Source: Xanthobacteraceae bacterium
GTDB taxonomy: Bacteria; Pseudomonadota; Alphaproteobacteria; Rhizobiales; Xanthobacteraceae
Reading direction: 5' to 3'
NCBI GenBank assembly: GCA_029239875.1
Contig: JARBUD010000016.1
Span: forward strand, 62,001 to 126,000
Length of the DNA: 64,000 nt
A program made the position numbers and the translations under genes. Positions 23,353 through 46,156 of the stretch are shown here, piece by piece. The notes under the pieces were generated by a model. It did no database searches and had not been told where the DNA came from. It saw only the letters and a program-made list of their open reading frames with translations. The stretch's first letter is position 1. Each line of letters opens with the position of its first letter.

Positions 23353-23403
23353 CTTGATTGACATGCAGATTATGTTCGAACATCCTCTCGATTAACAATC
23401 AAG
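23353..23403 (+). promoter_or_regulatory. Nested inverted repeat upstream of the LVIVD-repeat gene
   Basis: A perfect 12-bp palindrome ATGTTCGAACAT (23372-23383) is flanked by CTTGATTG (23353-23360) and its complement CAATCAAG (23396-23403), all sharing one centre. TTGACA (23358-23363) overlaps the left outer arm. This looks like a compound operator for a dimeric or tetrameric regulator, 50 bp before the ATG at 23453. Confidence 0.6.
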
Positions 23404-37759: not shown

Positions 37760-39268
37760 TCAGTCGGCACCCTCCTCGAAGGCGCGCTCGCGCGTCATCC
37801 GGATCATCGGCGCGACCAGCACGATCAGCAGCAGGAAGGTCAGCACGAGGAAGCTGAGGCTGATCGGCCGTTCGACGAACACCATCGGGTCGCCATGCGA
37901 GATCAGCAGCGCGCGGCGCAGCGTCTCCTCGATCATCGGCCCGAGGATGAAGCCGAGCAGCAGCGGCGCCGGCTCGCAATGCAGGCGCTTCATCATGTAG
38001 CCGAAGCCGCCGAACACCGCCGCCAGCACCACGTCGAGCGCGTTGTTGTTGATGCTGTACACGCCGATGCAGCAGAACAGCATGATCGCGGGATAGAGCA
38101 TGCGGTAGGGCACCGAGAGCAGCTTCACCCAGATGCCGATCAGCGGCAGGTTGAGCACCACCAGCATCAGGTTGCCGAGCCACATGGAGGCGATCAGCCC
38201 CCAGAACAGGTCCGGCCGCTGGTTCATCAGCTGCGGCCCGGGCGAGAGGCCCTGCATCATCAGCGCGCCGATCATCAGCGCCATCACCGCGCTCGACGGC
38301 AGGCCGAGCGTCAGCATCGGGATGAAGGCCGTCTGCGCCGCCGCATTGTTGGCCGCCTCCGGCCCGGCGACGCCTTCGAGCGCGCCATGGCCGAACTCGC
38401 CCGGCTTCTTCGACAGCTTCTTCTCCAGCGCATAGGTGGAGAAGGAAGCCAGCACCGGCCCGCCGCCCGGCAGCAGGCCGAGGCAGCCGCCCAGCGCCGT
38501 GCCGCGCAGCGCTGGCCCGAGGAAGCGCTTGATGTCGGCCCAGCTCGGCCACAGCCCGCGCACCTCCTTGACGAAGCTGCGCCCGCCCTCCTTCTGCTCG
38601 AGGTTGGAGATGGTCTCGCCGATGCCGAACATGCCCATAGCGATGACGGCGAAGTCGATGCCGTCTCCGAAAGCGGGCACCCCAAAGGTGTAGCGCTCGA
38701 GGCTTGTGTTGGCGTCGATGCCAATGGTGCCGAGGAGGATGCCGACCAGGATCATGCCGACGGCCTTCACGATCGAGCCATGGGCGAGGATCACCGCCGC
38801 CACCAGGCCGAACAGCATCAGCGAGAAATAGTCGGCCGGGCCGAAGTCCAGCGCCACCTCGGCGAGCGCCGGCGCCGCCACCGCGATGACCAGGGTGGCC
38901 AGCGTGCCGGCGATGAAGGAGCACAGTGCCGCGGTGGCGAGCGCGAGGCCCGCCTGCCCCTTGCGCGCCATCTGGTAGCCGTCGATGGCGGTGACCACGG
39001 ATGAACTCTCGCCCGGCAGGTTGACGAGGATCGCCGTGGTCGAGCCGCCATATTGCGCGCCGTAATAGATGCCGGCGAGCATGATCAGCGCTGCCGGCGC
39101 CGGCAGCGCGAAGGTCACCGGCAGCAGGATCGAGATGGTCGCCACCGGCCCCAGGCCCGGCAGCACGCCGATGACGGTGCCGAGCAGCACGCCGAGGAAG
39201 CCGTAGAACAGGTTCGCCGGCGTCAGCGCCACCGAGAAGCCGAGCAGCAATTCGTTGAAGAGCTCCAT
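37760..39268 (-). CDS. TctA-family large membrane subunit of a TTT transporter, second system
   Basis: 502 residues, about twelve membrane segments. Family motifs: GVLPGLGPVATISILLPVT near the N-terminus, YGAQYGGSTTAILVNLPGES, GLLPGGGPVLASF and EAANNAAAQTAFIPMLTLG. It takes up an organic acid with ion coupling. It is last in the minus-strand order Gfo/Idh - Bug - TctB - TctA and begins 10 bp after TctB. Confidence 0.93.
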   Translation of the reverse strand: MELFNELLLGFSVALTPANLFYGFLGVLLGTVIGVLPGLGPVATISILLPVTFALPAPAALIMLAGIYYGAQYGGSTTAILVNLPGESSSVVTAIDGYQMARKGQAGLALATAALCSFIAGTLATLVIAVAAPALAEVALDFGPADYFSLMLFGLVAAVILAHGSIVKAVGMILVGILLGTIGIDANTSLERYTFGVPAFGDGIDFAVIAMGMFGIGETISNLEQKEGGRSFVKEVRGLWPSWADIKRFLGPALRGTALGGCLGLLPGGGPVLASFSTYALEKKLSKKPGEFGHGALEGVAGPEAANNAAAQTAFIPMLTLGLPSSAVMALMIGALMMQGLSPGPQLMNQRPDLFWGLIASMWLGNLMLVVLNLPLIGIWVKLLSVPYRMLYPAIMLFCCIGVYSINNNALDVVLAAVFGGFGYMMKRLHCEPAPLLLGFILGPMIEETLRRALLISHGDPMVFVERPISLSFLVLTFLLLIVLVAPMIRMTRERAFEEGAD

Positions 39269-39278
39269 CGCGCCGCCC

Positions 39279-39725
39279 TCACCACAGATGGGTGGCGGGC
39301 AGATGCAGCCCGAGACCGTAGGAGAACAGCACCAGGCAGAAGCCGACCAGCCCCACCGCGAGCAGTATCGTCTCCAGCGGCTTGTACTGCCGGCCGGCGA
39401 TACGCGCGCCGATGACGACGGCCAGCCCGGCCACCGGGAAGCCCCAGTCCTCGATCAGCAGCCCGAACAGCAGGATGCTGCCGATCAGCAGCGCCAGCGG
39501 CCGGATGTCGATCGCGCCGACTTCTTGGGTCTCGGTGAGGGAGGAGCGGACAATCAGCACGCCGCCGAGCAGGATGAGGCCGGAGCTGACCAGCAGCGGG
39601 AAATAGCCGGCGCCCATGCGCGCGGCGGTGCCGATCGGGTAGTCGGAACCGATGATGATGGCGATGGCGCCCAGGCCGCAGAACAGCAGCCCGGTGAGGA
39701 AGTCGGAAGAGATCCTGATGTCCAT
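39279..39725 (-). CDS. TctB-family small membrane subunit of a TTT transporter, second system
   Basis: 148 residues from the ATG at 39725; a TTG two codons upstream is less likely. Hydrophobic segments near 10-25, 43-60, 75-107 (two) and 118-137 fit TctB. Position between the Bug and TctA genes supports the call. The 123-bp gap to the Bug gene contains two stem-loops. Confidence 0.85.
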   Translation of the reverse strand: MDIRISSDFLTGLLFCGLGAIAIIIGSDYPIGTAARMGAGYFPLLVSSGLILLGGVLIVRSSLTETQEVGAIDIRPLALLIGSILLFGLLIEDWGFPVAGLAVVIGARIAGRQYKPLETILLAVGLVGFCLVLFSYGLGLHLPATHLW

Positions 39726-39735
39726 GGACAACCCC

Positions 39736-39771
39736 GTTTCCGCCCTCGCGGCTGCGCGAGGCAGCGGAAAC
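39736..39771 (-). promoter_or_regulatory. Stem-loop upstream of TctB (Bug-TctB gap, first hairpin)
   Basis: Arms GTTTCCGC plus CCTCGCG pair with CGCGAGG and GCGGAAAC around a GCTG loop, with a two-base CA bulge: 15 paired positions. Together with the hairpin at 39799-39828 it fills the gap between the binding-protein and TctB genes. Likely tuning of the subunit ratio. Confidence 0.62.
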
Positions 39772-39798
39772 GACGGCGGCTTGGTGACCGGGTGACGT

Positions 39799-39828
39799 CG
39801 AAGCCGGCGCCAGGCGGCACCGGCTTCG
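39799..39828 (-). promoter_or_regulatory. Stem-loop directly after the Bug gene (second hairpin)
   Basis: CGAAGCCGG and CCGGCTTCG, nine perfect pairs around a 12-base loop, 20 bp downstream of the Bug stop on the minus strand. No T run follows, so stabilisation or partial termination is likelier than full termination. Confidence 0.6.
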
Positions 39829-39848
39829 CGGTCGAGTAGCAGCGGGCG

Positions 39849-40853
39849 TCAGTCGGCCTTGGCGCCGATCTCCTTGATGATGCCGCTCCATTTGTCGGCG
39901 TCGGCCTGGATGTAGGCCTTGAAGTCCGTCGGGCTGGGGCTCGACACTGCGATGACGCCGGATTCGGCCATGCGCGCCTTGATGGTCGGGTCCTTCATCG
40001 CCTCGACCACCGCCTTATGCAGCTTGTCGATGATCGGCTGCGGTGTGCCGGCGGGGGCGAGCAGCCCCTGCCAGGAGGAGGAGACGCTCTTGGGGAAGCC
40101 CTGCTCGGTCATGGTCGGCACGTCCGGCAGCTGCGGCACGCGCTCCTTGGTGCTGACGCCGAGCGCTTTGAGCCGCCCGCCCTTCACATGATTGATGCCC
40201 GAGGAGATGGTCACGAACATCAAGCTGACATGGCCGCCCATGACGTCGGCGGCGGCGGGCCCGGCGCCGCCCTTGTAGGGCACATGGATCATGTCGAGCC
40301 CCGCCTCGCGGCGGAACGCCTCCATCTCCAGCCGGTTCACCGAGCCGGTACCGGGCGAGGCGAAGTTCACCTGCCCCGGCCGCGCCTTCACATACTCCAC
40401 CAATTCCTTGACGTTGTTCGGCGGGAACTTCGGGTTGGCGATCATCAGGCCGGGCGTGTCGGCGACGATGGAGATCGGCGTGAAATCCTCCAGCGGCTTC
40501 ACCCGCAGGCTGGAGAAGATGTAGGGGTTGATCGACACGGTGCCGACATTGCCGAGGAACAGCGTGTAGCCGTCCGGCTTGGCGCGGGCGGCGAGGTCCA
40601 TGCCGACGTTGCCGGCGGCGCCGTCGCGGTTCTCCACCACGATCTGCTGGCCGAGGATCTCCGAGAGCCGCGGCTGCAGCAGGCGGGCGGCGAAGTCGGA
40701 GGCGCCGCCCGGCGCGAAGGGCACGATGACGGTGATCGGCTGGTTCGGATAATCCGATTGCGCCTGCGCCTGCGCCGGCAGCGCGGCGGCAAGCGTTGCC
40801 CCGGCCAGGAGCGCGAGGCCGGCACGGCGGGTGAAAGTCACGGCAGCATTCAT
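39849..40853 (-). CDS. TTT transporter substrate-binding protein (Bug/TctC family), second system
   Basis: 334 residues with a Sec signal (about 9-31, Ala-rich end LPAQAQAQ). Bug-family landmarks are strong: YPNQPITVIVPFAPGGASDF, VVENRDGAAGNVGMDLAARA, PDGYTLFLGN, NFASPGTGSVNRLEMEAF and MIHVPYKGGAGPAAADVMGG. It binds an organic acid in the periplasm for the TctB/TctA pair encoded downstream. It lies 66 bp after a Gfo/Idh gene in the same direction, suggesting that the imported compound or a product is a Gfo/Idh substrate. Confidence 0.93.
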   Translation of the reverse strand: MNAAVTFTRRAGLALLAGATLAAALPAQAQAQSDYPNQPITVIVPFAPGGASDFAARLLQPRLSEILGQQIVVENRDGAAGNVGMDLAARAKPDGYTLFLGNVGTVSINPYIFSSLRVKPLEDFTPISIVADTPGLMIANPKFPPNNVKELVEYVKARPGQVNFASPGTGSVNRLEMEAFRREAGLDMIHVPYKGGAGPAAADVMGGHVSLMFVTISSGINHVKGGRLKALGVSTKERVPQLPDVPTMTEQGFPKSVSSSWQGLLAPAGTPQPIIDKLHKAVVEAMKDPTIKARMAESGVIAVSSPSPTDFKAYIQADADKWSGIIKEIGAKAD

Positions 40854-40919: not shown

Positions 40920-42056
40920 TCAGGCCATGGCGGCCTCGCGCATGAGTTCGCGTTCACCCTCGACTTCGAGCGGCAGCTTCACCGGCCGCCTCAGCCTGGC
41001 GGACAGGTCGAGCGCCTTGGTCAGCATCAGCCGGTTATGCGCCTCCGCCGCGGTGGCATGCTGCGTCGGCAGGTCGAGCGCGATGCGGTTGAGCCAGGAT
41101 TCCGTCTCGGTCCGCATTGGCCCGCGCAGCTCGCCGAGCGCCATGTCGCCGGGCGGATAGCTGCCCATGAAGTCGACGAGGCGGCTCCTGTCCGGCAGGT
41201 AGCCCTCTTCTTGCGGCGCAGAGACCGCCAGCACGATGTCGCGATGGGTATCGTCGATGGTGAGCACGCCGGTCGTGCCGACGATGCCGACCTCGAGGCT
41301 GTACACCGCGCCCGGCCAGGTCACTGGCAGCGCCCAGGAGATGTTGAGGTGATAGAGCGAACCGTCGCTCATCATGATCATGCCGGCGGTGCCGTCGATG
41401 CCGCGCCAGTCCGGCCCGAGCACCTTGTCGACGGAGCGGGCATAGACCTCCACCGGCGTCTTCGCCTCCAGGTACCACATGACGATGTCGAGCGCGTGGG
41501 TGCCGGAGATCACCATGGGCGAGATGGTCTCGGGCGCGTCCGAACGGCGGTAATTGTCGATGGCGACCAGCCGGTTCATGAAGGCGCGCGACGTCACCAT
41601 GGTGACGTCGCCCAGCGCGCCGGTGCGCACCTTTTCCTTGGCGGCGAGCCAGCGGCGGCGGAAGCGCTGGGTGTAGCCCACCACGGCATCGACGCCGGAC
41701 GCCTCGATCTCGCGCAGCACCCGCGCGGAATCGTCGAGATGCGTCGCCAGCGGCTTCTCGATCAGCATCGGCAGGTCGCGTTCCAGCGCCGCCATCACCG
41801 GATCGACATGCAGATGCTCGTCGGTGGCGACGATCACCGCCGTCACCTCCGGGCGCTTCAGCAGCTCGCGATGGCTGGTAGTGACGAAATCCGCGCCGAT
41901 CTCGGCGCCGACGCGCCGCCCCTTCTCCGCATCGATCTCCGCGAGGCCGATCCATTCGACGGCGGGATGCCGCGCGGCGACCGCGCCGCGGAACAGGCCG
42001 ACGCGGCCGGCGCCGACAATGGCAAGCCCGATACCCTTGGGCGACTTTCGCGGCAT
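40920..42056 (-). CDS. Gfo/Idh/MocA-family oxidoreductase (inositol dehydrogenase-like)
   Basis: 378 residues from the ATG at 42056 (GGGAGAGTTTTCTG before it). Rossmann motif IVGAGRVG (about 12-19), EKPLATH (about 102-108), GYTQRFRRRW and the ISGTHALDIVMWYLE stretch with the usual His and Asp. NAD-dependent oxidation of a sugar- or cyclitol-like compound is the family norm. It sits between the HutC regulator and the second TTT transporter and is a paralogue of 43019-44104 (shared SQRF/TQRF and D-VFW/D-VMW features). Confidence 0.9.
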   Translation of the reverse strand: MPRKSPKGIGLAIVGAGRVGLFRGAVAARHPAVEWIGLAEIDAEKGRRVGAEIGADFVTTSHRELLKRPEVTAVIVATDEHLHVDPVMAALERDLPMLIEKPLATHLDDSARVLREIEASGVDAVVGYTQRFRRRWLAAKEKVRTGALGDVTMVTSRAFMNRLVAIDNYRRSDAPETISPMVISGTHALDIVMWYLEAKTPVEVYARSVDKVLGPDWRGIDGTAGMIMMSDGSLYHLNISWALPVTWPGAVYSLEVGIVGTTGVLTIDDTHRDIVLAVSAPQEEGYLPDRSRLVDFMGSYPPGDMALGELRGPMRTETESWLNRIALDLPTQHATAAEAHNRLMLTKALDLSARLRRPVKLPLEVEGERELMREAAMA

Positions 42057-42242
42057 CAGAAAACTCTCCCTCGACAATCCAGACGATGCGCGGGCGATTT
42101 CATTGTGCATCGCACCGCAAGCCGGCTCTTTATTTGCGGTCGAGCGGACCATACGCAGGGAGGGGCTTCAAATACTCTTTCGCCATTGGGACATACTGGC
42201 AGGGCATGGCAGACGCGACGCCCGCCCCGGTGCGCGGGGGCC

Positions 42243-42998
42243 TCAGCGACGCTCGAATTCGATGTTCAGCGTGAAGCGGTTCTCGGGGTGCACCGAATAG
42301 GTGACCAGGAACACGGCCCCATCCTGCCCGCGGTAGCGGCGAATGATGATGAGGGCGGGATCGTCCTCGCGTGCCATCAGCGGCTCCGCCAGCTCCGCCG
42401 TGACATGCCCGACGAAAATCTCCACCTGCGCATGCGCGGCGCGCACGTTCAGCGCCTCCTCAAGCTGGCGCAGCACCGGCGCGCCTTCCGGGTTCGGAAG
42501 ATCGAACACACCCGCATGCTCCGGTAGCACGTAGATGTCGAAATAGGCGATGGGCGCGAGCGAGGCCTGCGTCAGCCGGAGCGCCTTCAGCCGCACCCAG
42601 GGCTGCCCGACCCGGCATTTCAGCAGCATGGCCAGCTCGGGCGAGGCCGTGAGGCGATCCGTCCGCAGATGCTTGCGGCGGGTCTGCGAGGGATATTGCA
42701 GCAATTCCTCGATCGAGCTCAGCCGGTGCACGAAGGCCTCGCGCCGGCGGCTGGCGAGAACGATGGTGCCGACGCCGGCCCGCGCATCGATCAGCCCCTC
42801 CTCCCGCAGGCCGGCAAGGGCCTGCCGGACGGTGAAGCGGCTGGCCCCGAAACGTGAGCACAGCTCATGCTCCGTCGGCAGGCGCGCGCCGACTGCATGG
42901 ACGCCCGCGTTTATCTCGGCGCGCAGGGCCGCCTCGATCTCGCTGTAGCGGGCGCCACGCCCGGCCTTGGCCGGCACGGCCGGATCGTCATCCGTCAT
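42243..42998 (-). CDS. GntR-family transcription regulator (HutC subfamily, UTRA domain)
   Basis: 251 residues from the ATG at 42998, which has GAGGTGG at good spacing; a GTG at 43022 overlapping the previous stop is an alternative. N-terminal winged helix: RYSEIEAALRAEINAGVHAV then RLPTEHELCSRFGASRFTVRQAL with wing GVGT. The UTRA ligand domain follows (AYFDIYVLPEHAGVF, AREDDPALIIIRRYR, VTYSVHPENRFTLN). Two ATGTCCGGACAT-type palindromes upstream of the first gene in this row (44143 and 44198) are its probable operators. Confidence 0.9.
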   Translation of the reverse strand: MTDDDPAVPAKAGRGARYSEIEAALRAEINAGVHAVGARLPTEHELCSRFGASRFTVRQALAGLREEGLIDARAGVGTIVLASRRREAFVHRLSSIEELLQYPSQTRRKHLRTDRLTASPELAMLLKCRVGQPWVRLKALRLTQASLAPIAYFDIYVLPEHAGVFDLPNPEGAPVLRQLEEALNVRAAHAQVEIFVGHVTAELAEPLMAREDDPALIIIRRYRGQDGAVFLVTYSVHPENRFTLNIEFERR

Positions 42999-43018: not shown

Positions 43019-44104
43019 TCACGACGCCGCGACGGCGGCGGCCTTGAGATCGCCGAGGCGGGCAATGGACTGGTTCGACAGCGGCAGGTCGACCGGCTCG
43101 TTGATCGCCGCGGAGAGGTCCGCCGCCATGTAGCTCTGCATCACCATGCGGGCATGTTCGGGCTCAACCATGACCGGGCGGCCGCGCAGCACGGATTCGA
43201 GGAAATGGATCGTCTCCGGCCCCATCTGGCCGGCGAAGACATGGTCCACCTGCTCGCCGGGCATGGTCGACATGGGAAAGCGCGTGCCCTCGCTCACCGT
43301 GCTGAGCCAGTTGTCGCGCTGGGTGTCGTCAAGGATCAGCGCGCCCTCGGTGCCGGTGATCTCGATCCAGGTGCCGCAATAGTTCGGATAGGCCGGCGGC
43401 AGGTTCCAGCCGCCGCCGACGACGACCAGCGTGCCGTCGTCCATCGTGACCGTGGACCACATGCAGTCATAGGAGCCGTTGACCGCCTGCATGTAGCCAT
43501 AGGCGCCCTGCGAATAGACCCGCACCGGCTTGGCCGGCTCCAGCAGCCAAAAGACGAAATCGAGGTCGTGGGTGGATTCCATCGCCGCGGGCGAAAGCTT
43601 CACCCGCGAGGCGATCTTCTTGCCGAGATTGCGCGACAGGTGGCGACTGACCATCACGTTGACCACCCGCCCGAGCGTGCCGTCGGCGATGCTCTTCTTG
43701 GCATAGGCGATCTTGGGGTTGAAGCGCTGGGAATAGCCGATGGTGAACTTGACGCCGTTGCGCCGGGACAACTCGATCAGCTCGTTCGCCTCCCAGAGCT
43801 CCATGGCGATCGGCTTTTCCAGCAGCACATGCTTGCCGGCCCGCAGGCAATCGCGAGCGATGGGGAAATGGGTGCTCTCCGGGGTCGTGGAGATGTAGAC
43901 GACCTGGATCGCTTCGTTGTCGACGATGTCCTGGTAGTCCAGCGTGGCCGTCGCCGGGTTGGTGAGCGCCCTCACCTCCTCCAGCCGCTCCGGCCGGATC
44001 TCGCAGATGTGCAGCTTGTCCACCAGCGCCGAGCGGGACAGCGTCTCCGCCCGGATCCCTCCGCACCACCCGGTGCCGATCACTGCCACCTCGACCTGCC
44101 GCAT
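43019..44104 (-). CDS. Gfo/Idh/MocA-family oxidoreductase, first gene of the HutC-controlled row
   Basis: 361 residues from the ATG at 44104, with GGGAGGTATTGCC upstream; a longer frame would run through the operators. Rossmann motif IGTGWCGG (about 9-16), EKPIAME (about 96-102), GYSQRFNPKIAYAKK and the AAMESTHDLDFVFWLLE stretch carrying the family His and Asp. It should oxidise a polyol- or sugar-like compound with NAD(P). Its promoter carries a perfect 14-bp palindrome, implying tight repression. Confidence 0.9.
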   Translation of the reverse strand: MRQVEVAVIGTGWCGGIRAETLSRSALVDKLHICEIRPERLEEVRALTNPATATLDYQDIVDNEAIQVVYISTTPESTHFPIARDCLRAGKHVLLEKPIAMELWEANELIELSRRNGVKFTIGYSQRFNPKIAYAKKSIADGTLGRVVNVMVSRHLSRNLGKKIASRVKLSPAAMESTHDLDFVFWLLEPAKPVRVYSQGAYGYMQAVNGSYDCMWSTVTMDDGTLVVVGGGWNLPPAYPNYCGTWIEITGTEGALILDDTQRDNWLSTVSEGTRFPMSTMPGEQVDHVFAGQMGPETIHFLESVLRGRPVMVEPEHARMVMQSYMAADLSAAINEPVDLPLSNQSIARLGDLKAAAVAAS

Positions 44105-44141
44105 GGCAATACCTCCCATCCTCGTTTGTGATTGACGGCAT

Positions 44142-44155
44142 AATGTCCGGACATT
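44142..44155 (-). promoter_or_regulatory. Perfect 14-bp operator palindrome (proximal)
   Basis: AATGTCCGGACATT, 38 bp upstream of the Gfo/Idh ATG at 44104. On the minus strand TTGCCT, 17 bases and CATTAT (overlapping the palindrome end) form a plausible promoter, which places the operator between -35 and -10. A second copy is at 44198. Confidence 0.78.
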
Positions 44156-44197
44156 TTTGGAGAGGCAATCCGAGACTGGCATTTCTCACGCTGACAG

Positions 44198-44209
44198 ATG
44201 TCCGGACTT
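44198..44209 (-). promoter_or_regulatory. Second operator copy (distal), one mismatch
   Basis: ATGTCCGGACTT, 11 of 12 positions as in the proximal site, 55 bp away centre to centre (about five helix turns). The spacing would suit cooperative binding or looping by the HutC-type regulator at 42243. Confidence 0.7.
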
Positions 44210-44288
44210 CAGCCGGCCTCGCCGCTGTTTGCCGCTCCTAAACCACTGGCGGCGCATGATCGGCTCGGTCCGCAACCGGAGGCGCGAT

Positions 44289-45049: not shown

Positions 45050-46156
45050 TCAGGCCCCATTTTGAGCCGCTGACCTGTTAGCGGCGTGCGCCTCTCGGTC
45101 CTGCTCGACCCGCCATTGCGAGGGGGCCACGCCCGCCCATCGCCGGAAAGCGTGATCGAAGGAGCTGTGGGCAGAATACGACAGGGCCTCGGCGACGCGT
45201 CCGATCGGCAGGCGTGTCAGTGCCAGCAGCTCGCGCGCCACCGTGAAGCGCACCTCGTCCTTGATCGCCTCGAAGCTGGTGCCGGCGCGCGCGAGATGAC
45301 GGGCAAGGGTGCGCGGCTCGATATTCAGCTCGCACGCGATCGCGGTGCGGTTGGCCTCGTCGAGCATCAGCCGAGGCCGTATGGCGTGCCGGACCTGGGC
45401 GGCGATATTCTCCAGATCGCCGCTCATCATGTTCTGAATGGCGGTGCGAAGCTGCAGCCGCCGGACCGGGTCCGCTCCCGGCAGCGGCATCGCCATTTCG
45501 TGCCCGGCGATGACGATGCCGGTCTGCTCCTGGTCGAAGGCGACCGTGGTCTTCAGGGTGCTGCGATAGGGGGCGGCATTGTGGGGCGGGCCGACGGATT
45601 CGAGCACGCGCAGGGGCTGCGCGCGGCCCGCGGTGAGCGCGCGCACCATGTTGCACCCGATCGCGACGACGAGGTCGTGGACCTGGCGACCGTGGATCTG
45701 GTGGTCGGGGCCCGTTCCGGCATCGTAGAGGCCATAGCCGACGATATAGTCGTCGCCGCTGCGCTGGAGATACACGACCGCGCCGCGCGAATAGCCGATC
45801 TGGAGCCCAACATAGTCGCGAAAGGCGTCGCCCAGCGTGGGGGCGCTGGCCATCATCTCACCGATAAGGCCCAGTGCCCGGTGATCGCTGCGGGCACCGA
45901 GCAGCAGGCCGAAATGAGGGCAGCCGGCCAGCCTCGCACAGCGCTCGATTAAGCCGGCTAAGGATGGATAGGGGAACCGGGCCTCGGGCAGCAACTGGTC
46001 GGGCGCGATTCCGGAACCTGCGAAGGCTCTGTCGAGGCTCACGCCGAGCTCGTCGAGAAGTGCCGGCAGCTCGGCGACCGGGCCCACGCGCTGGGACGGG
46101 ACGTTCGTCAAAATCGGCCTCACTGTCCTCAAATAGCAAGCGGCACCCACCTCCAT
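45050..46156 (-). CDS. AraC-family transcription regulator (OruR/ArgR-like with arabinose-binding-type N-domain)
   Basis: 368 residues. The N-terminal about 230 residues are of the large ligand-binding type (LLGARSDHRALGLIGEMMAS, GYGLYDAGTGPDHQIH). The C-terminal two helix-turn-helix domain covers about 260-355: CELNIEPRTLARHLARAGTS and IGRVAEALSYSAHSSFDHAF followed by RRWAGVAPSQWR. The start is not certain; an ATG at 46156 is used. It diverges across 219 bp from the DUF1254 gene, which it may regulate. Confidence 0.87.
   Translation of the reverse strand: MEVGAACYLRTVRPILTNVPSQRVGPVAELPALLDELGVSLDRAFAGSGIAPDQLLPEARFPYPSLAGLIERCARLAGCPHFGLLLGARSDHRALGLIGEMMASAPTLGDAFRDYVGLQIGYSRGAVVYLQRSGDDYIVGYGLYDAGTGPDHQIHGRQVHDLVVAIGCNMVRALTAGRAQPLRVLESVGPPHNAAPYRSTLKTTVAFDQEQTGIVIAGHEMAMPLPGADPVRRLQLRTAIQNMMSGDLENIAAQVRHAIRPRLMLDEANRTAIACELNIEPRTLARHLARAGTSFEAIKDEVRFTVARELLALTRLPIGRVAEALSYSAHSSFDHAFRRWAGVAPSQWRVEQDREAHAANRSAAQNGA

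Follow-up and report, generated by a model that had tools for sequence, protein, structure and literature searches.

A conserved palindromic word before an oxidoreductase gene as putative operator of the neighbouring HutC-type regulator in a Xanthobacteraceae bacterium

Two similar palindromic words lie before an oxidoreductase gene of a Xanthobacteraceae bacterium, and a HutC-type regulator is encoded directly behind that gene. Are these words the operators of this regulator, do they work as a pair, and do they lead to other genes under its control? Within the window (the whole stretch of DNA that was analysed, 64,000 nucleotides), the genes and sites concerned are as follows.

37760..40853, minus strand: tripartite tricarboxylate transporter (TTT) genes
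37760-39268, minus strand: TctA (Pfam match)
39223-39891, minus strand: middle ORF, TctB by position only, with no Pfam match
39849-40853, minus strand: TctC (Pfam match)
40920..42056, minus strand: gfo2, second Gfo/Idh gene (Pfam), 186 bp behind the regulator gene
42243..42998, minus strand: HutC-type regulator (Pfam GntR winged helix and UTRA), 20 bp behind gfo1 on the same strand
43019..44104, minus strand: gfo1, Gfo/Idh/MocA-family oxidoreductase (Pfam), first gene of the presumed controlled unit
44140..44145, minus strand: presumed -10 hexamer CATTAT, chosen by eye, running into the proximal operator
44142..44155, no strand assigned: putative proximal operator AATGTCCGGACATT, a perfect 14-bp palindrome overlapping the presumed -10 of the gfo1 promoter
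44163..44168, minus strand: presumed -35 hexamer TTGCCT, chosen by eye, 17 bp from CATTAT
44197..44210, no strand assigned: putative distal operator GATGTCCGGACTTC, with one mismatch in the 12-bp word

The letters bear out the description given in the original prediction, a perfect 14-bp palindrome with an 11/12 second copy 55 bp away. The proximal copy begins at -50 relative to the gfo1 start and contains the 12-bp word ATGTCCGGACAT exactly (44143-44154), and the second copy is ATGTCCGGACTT at 44198-44209, the 55 bp being the start-to-start distance between the two words. The genome scan that had been proposed along with this description showed that the motif is not common genome-wide: in 5,071,951 bases (71 contigs) the exact 12-bp word occurs once, the reversed word used as a control does not occur, and 10 places match with at most one mismatch, two of them being the gfo1 promoter pair. 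Allowing two mismatches, we found 5 matches in the window against 2.33 expected, and 5 of 100 shuffles reach 5. Two-mismatch matches are not rare in the window; what makes the words significant is therefore the exact copy, how near the second copy lies, and their conservation.

The regulator has an N-terminal GntR winged-helix domain (PF00392, E 2.9e-17) and a C-terminal UTRA effector domain (PF07702, E 1.7e-16), both above cut-off. It reaches the cut-off of no NCBIfam equivalog, PhnF, HutC and TreR among them (TreR: 79.1 bits, cut-off 211.95), and its nearest solved relative by sequence is NagR/YvoA. No equivalog cut-off was reached by gfo1 either, whose likely start, as read from the sequence, is the ATG at 44104 preceded by GGGAGG. 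By sequence, the nearest solved structures to gfo1 and gfo2 are DgpA-type and inositol-dehydrogenase-type enzymes, all of them distant. A DUF2161 gene and an AraC-type gene (45050-46156) lie on the other side of the operators, a LysR gene is nearby, and five further UTRA proteins are encoded in the same genome.

In a genus sample of 30 genomes, 15 of which have gfo1, the word and the regulator gene go together. All eight gfo1 loci with a HutC gene alongside (our own included) have GT(C/A)CG(G/T)AC 32-69 bp before the start codon, whereas the 200 bp before it contain no such word in any of the seven loci without a HutC gene (one-sided Fisher 1.6e-4, a value that ignores relatedness and uses word variants set after inspection of the eight HutC-bearing promoters). 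With as many as three differences from the window word allowed, two of these seven loci give matches, which are non-palindromic. The 12-base word begins 34-71 bp before the start codon in all eight HutC-bearing loci and reads ATGTCCGGACAT in three, ATGTCCGGACAA in two, TTGTCCGTACAA in two and TTGTACGGACAT in one. In the last two forms, thus in three of the eight promoters, the palindrome is imperfect, and TTGTCCGTACAA is three mismatches away from the window word; all eight promoters, the window's among them, have CG at the centre of the palindrome. In an unbiased comparison of every 12-mer from the 150 bp before gfo1 with the seven relatives, the operator-covering words were the best kept, with a best total of 8 mismatches compared with 29 for the median word and 21 for the lowest best total in 200 shuffles. 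Compared without gaps, these 150-bp regions agree at only 21-36% of positions, although indels depress this value. Two of the seven genomes without a HutC gene at gfo1 (G650 and G662) encode a HutC homologue (~49%) elsewhere, and both have ATGTCCGGACTT ~4.4 kb upstream of it, with CoA-transferase genes between.

At E 1e-40 or better, homologues of the regulator are present in 6 of the 397 genomes searched from the order and in 27 of the 391 from the family, our own genome being in both sets, and 23 loci (own included) that are a subset of these matches were compared. In three genomes of another family the word stands directly before a HutC gene: the exact 14-mer in G251 (35% identical) and in G325 (33% identity, with an MmgE/PrpD gene on the other side), and a one-mismatch 12-mer in G268 (37% identical). 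Across the order the exact 14-mer occurs at 7 places in 6 of the 397 genomes, and the reversed control in 2 genomes. Three of the seven places (our own genome G000, G251 and G325) precede a HutC homologue; at the other four no such homologue was seen within the stretch examined, which for the two places in G032 is bounded by contig ends. In 13 of the 23 loci, neither the regulator gene nor gfo1 has a word immediately before it. A word is found elsewhere in the neighbourhood in five of these (G650, G662, G095 and two loci of G419), and no word was seen in a fitting place in the remaining eight. The two loci of G419 are clusters of TctC, Gfo/Idh and HutC (37%) genes, each with two words 97 bp apart before TctC, where they carry TTTGTCCGTACAAA. 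Bradyrhizobium-like homologues (~38%) showed no shared operator-type palindrome upstream of TctC.

The original prediction that the words are operators of the neighbouring HutC-type regulator is supported by this comparison, both by the split at gfo1 and by the words before distant HutC genes. On the sequence evidence, it is highly likely that the palindromes are operators of the protein encoded at 42243-42998, through which it would repress gfo1 and its own gene. The site is very probably the conserved operator of a local HutC-type autoregulator, of an ordinary kind but with a somewhat unusual centre. The effector-free regulator dimer would sit on the proximal site, over the presumed gfo1 promoter, and would block transcription of gfo1 and of the regulator gene just behind; an effector on the UTRA domain would weaken DNA binding. 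In our own species and its nearest relatives the distal copy would be an auxiliary site, probably strengthening repression. Direct binding, repression over activation, the position of the promoter, autoregulation and a sugar-like effector are parts of this picture that we infer. By hand count, TTGCCT and CATTAT match 8 of 12 consensus bases, and a promoter scanner with a threshold of 9 found 0 promoters.

The controlled unit is probably gfo1-hutC, with read-through into gfo2 possible, because these two genes are 20 bp apart on one strand, gfo2 lacks an operator and gfo2 is remote in two relatives. In 14 of 15 genomes (own included), the 260 bp before gfo2 contain no operator even with two mismatches allowed, and in G666 and G670 gfo2 is 2.5 Mb distant or sits on a different contig. 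The word would thus be a putative operator for an uncharacterised HutC-type regulator tied to one oxidoreductase gene, not to the whole transport cluster.

The region upstream of gfo2 has an element of its own. At 42169-42195 (minus strand), TATGTCCCAATGGCGAAAGAGTATTTG lies inside a conserved stretch of ~80 bp, is kept there with at most five mismatches in 13 of 15 genomes and is unique in its own genome at up to three mismatches. It also occurs upstream of gfo1 in five of the seven loci without HutC and in none of the eight with HutC. We rejected a 25-codon gene as an explanation: changes per codon position are about equal (72, 53 and 70), 108 of 137 codon changes are non-synonymous, and the start codon is missing in 3 of 15 copies. 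The element had no Rfam match at E 1 and two of its peptides had no Pfam match. It may be a promoter element or the site of a second regulator.

The word had also been proposed as a route to the rest of the regulon, and here, with up to one mismatch searched, it fails in its own genome, where the exact word is unique and the other matches overlap ORFs. Each of the eight other one-mismatch places is overlapped by some ORF in a mechanical listing, and none is shown to be regulatory; one of them (L009) may be intergenic. The sequence WTGTCCGKACAW matches two places in the genome, the gfo1 promoter and L006, and we rejected L006 as an operator, as it reads by eye as an SCO1-like coding stretch. 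At L010 (1501-1512; C62:203908-203919 of our own genome) the one-mismatch word ATGTCCGGACAC falls on the start codon of a further GntR-UTRA regulator gene. The codons M-S-G-H account for its letters, and the match is probably a coding coincidence, cross-regulation being a possible alternative. The paired pattern GTCCGKAC was likewise rejected as a finder of HutC genes: it matched in 46 of 391 family genomes, with the reversed control at least as common by eye, and among 30 fetched loci three had a HutC homologue within ~1.5 kb, all three already known. Of four paired-word places chosen by eye, two were already among the 30 and the other two (G661 and G684) had a ~31% homologue. The motif is therefore a poor predictor of a wide regulon in its own genome. 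In three relatives (G625, G670 and G636) the regulon may be wider, since a second TTT operon adjoins the unit and more words lie 0.6-0.8 kb ahead of that operon's TctC.

Two further repeated words were noticed in the same searches. A sister palindrome, ATGTTCGAACAT, is present near the second TTT operon in two relatives (L052 4008 and L056 12770) and once in the window (23372-23383); it is possibly another regulator's operator or a variant of the gfo1 operator. In another genome of the family (G486, C30:13892-14082), GTCCGGAC is repeated in tandem with a period of 61 bp.

Could the sites belong to a different regulator? Candidates are present in the AraC-type gene, the nearby LysR gene and the five other UTRA proteins, and ATGTCCGGACAC is found at the start codon of one GntR-UTRA gene. 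However, none of the other 22 loci (14-16 kb each) gives a match to the AraC or DUF2161 gene at E 1e-10; in G251, G268 and G325, the only window gene found, of those searched, was the HutC homologue; and at gfo1 the word and the HutC gene appear and disappear together. Nor do AraC or LysR proteins usually bind short perfect palindromes of such a type. We regard ownership by another of these proteins as very unlikely. That the palindromes arose by chance is more improbable still, to the point of being barely credible. The two-mismatch count in the window and the 46 family genomes with paired GTCCGKAC, where 27 of the 30 fetched loci lack a HutC homologue within ~1.5 kb, speak for it, but the word is kept across eight diverged gfo1 promoters and follows the eight-to-seven split described above. 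The HutC-type protein thus stays the preferred owner of the sites.

Whether its two copies act together is a separate matter. The original prediction read them as paired and suited to cooperative binding, and here the loci point both ways: spacings lie near whole helical turns in several lineages, but only three of the eight HutC-bearing gfo1 loci (own included) have a distal copy with one mismatch or none, at a spacing that varies (55 bp in our genome, 77 bp in G646 and 65 bp in G625). A fourth locus (G666) has a two-mismatch word 118 bp away. Further pairs are spaced 53 bp in G095, 64 bp in G661, 63 bp in G684 and 97 bp in both G419 loci. In G661 and G684 the pairs adjoin PEP-mutase-type and isochorismatase genes (by Pfam, for G684), with HutC homologues of ~31% about 1 kb away. 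Counting G419 once, the seven spacings cluster in helical phase, from 5.05 to 9.24 turns of 10.5 bp (R 0.775), with a Monte Carlo p of 0.010, or 0.040 with one pair per lineage and 0.054 with our genome, G646 and G625 alone; the test was set up after the spacings had been seen, on loci that are partly related and with G661 and G684 picked by hand. The phasing hints, after the fact, at cooperation.

A single cooperative or looping repression unit that needs both sites is compatible with the preferred reading of a HutC operator. It gains from the recurrence of helix-phased pairs in seven genomes, and its weight increases because of the G419 pairs. Against it stand the five of eight loci without a distal copy at up to one mismatch, the post hoc nature of the phase test and the weak words of G095, both of which have two mismatches and lie behind the regulator gene, not before it. 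We consider such a two-site unit possible, though well short of an even chance.

How the regulator might read its word can be compared with NagR. In the available part of the NagR paper (PMC4333415), the NagR site GTGGTCTAGACCAC is numbered from its centre, with Arg48 reading G at -4 and Arg38 reading G at -5, native NagR sites frequently have T at -5 in one half, and AraR reads the equivalent of G-4 with a single Arg. The proximal site AATGTCCGGACATT has G at -4 and T at -5, and one half of the distal site has A at -5. Among the 23 aligned regulators, with NagR residue numbers assigned by manual count along the alignment, the Arg48 equivalent is kept in all, and position 38 is never Arg (His in 9, our own included, Thr in 7, Leu in 3, Phe in 2 and Ala in 2). 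T at -5 together with the lack of Arg at 38 fits a one-Arg reading, though this base is no proof of a missing Arg38 because native NagR sites often carry it in one half.

Taken further, the HutC branch in this order may have a DNA code of its own, TGTCCGGACA, with no Arg at NagR position 38, T at -5 and a CG centre, read mainly through the remaining Arg. Such a code would have been handed to different local pathways, with helix-phased pairs in some lineages. We advance this tentatively, as a proposal that falls a little short of an even chance. Genes near such words include Gfo/Idh, CoA-transferase, MmgE/PrpD, PEP-mutase/isocitrate-lyase and isochorismatase genes. Both this proposal and the main reading lose a little weight through the native NagR sites and the example of AraR. 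We found no open-licence paper linking GTCCGGAC or TGTCCGGAC with GntR, and for TGTCCGGACA none on a bacterial regulator among the matches listed. The regulator and its putative operator make a case for testing the joint change of winged-helix residue 38 and the -5 base.

Among known systems, the HutC of histidine utilisation shares the domain architecture, but its model (TIGR02018) gives 81.6 bits, below the cut-off of 220, and no hut gene was found among the 20 scanned ORFs. PhnF (TIGR02325) gives the regulator's best NCBIfam score, 98.2 bits, yet this is below the curated cut-off of 156.8, and the 20 Pfam-scanned ORFs include no phosphonate gene. The usual HutC operator consensus is GT-N-TA-N-AC. 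A palindromic GT...AC putative operator in the NagR register near the regulator gene, as found here, is typical of the HutC subfamily without defining it, and the TA centre, absent here, is likewise a usual trait, not a subfamily-defining one. AraR of Bacillus subtilis, another GntR type, is like our proposal in that, in the part of PMC4333415 available, one Arg reads G at -4. Its DNA-binding domain is only distantly similar to that of the regulator here (E 3.1e-7). The AraR effector domain differs.

The closest parallel is NagR (YvoA) of Bacillus subtilis, itself a distant relative (E 2.4e-14), for which the same part of PMC4333415 describes a transcription block with effector-tuned binding and argues that the effector tunes rather than abolishes binding. 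Both proteins combine a GntR winged helix with UTRA and keep the Arg48 equivalent, and the NagR dre-sites share the register of our sites and agree with them at -4 (G), -3 (T) and -2 (C). Unlike NagR, the regulator here has His at 38, and in its putative operator positions -7 and -6 are A, -5 is T and -1 is C, giving a CG centre where that of NagR is TA. Native NagR sites are never perfect palindromes, whereas the proximal site before gfo1 is a perfect one.
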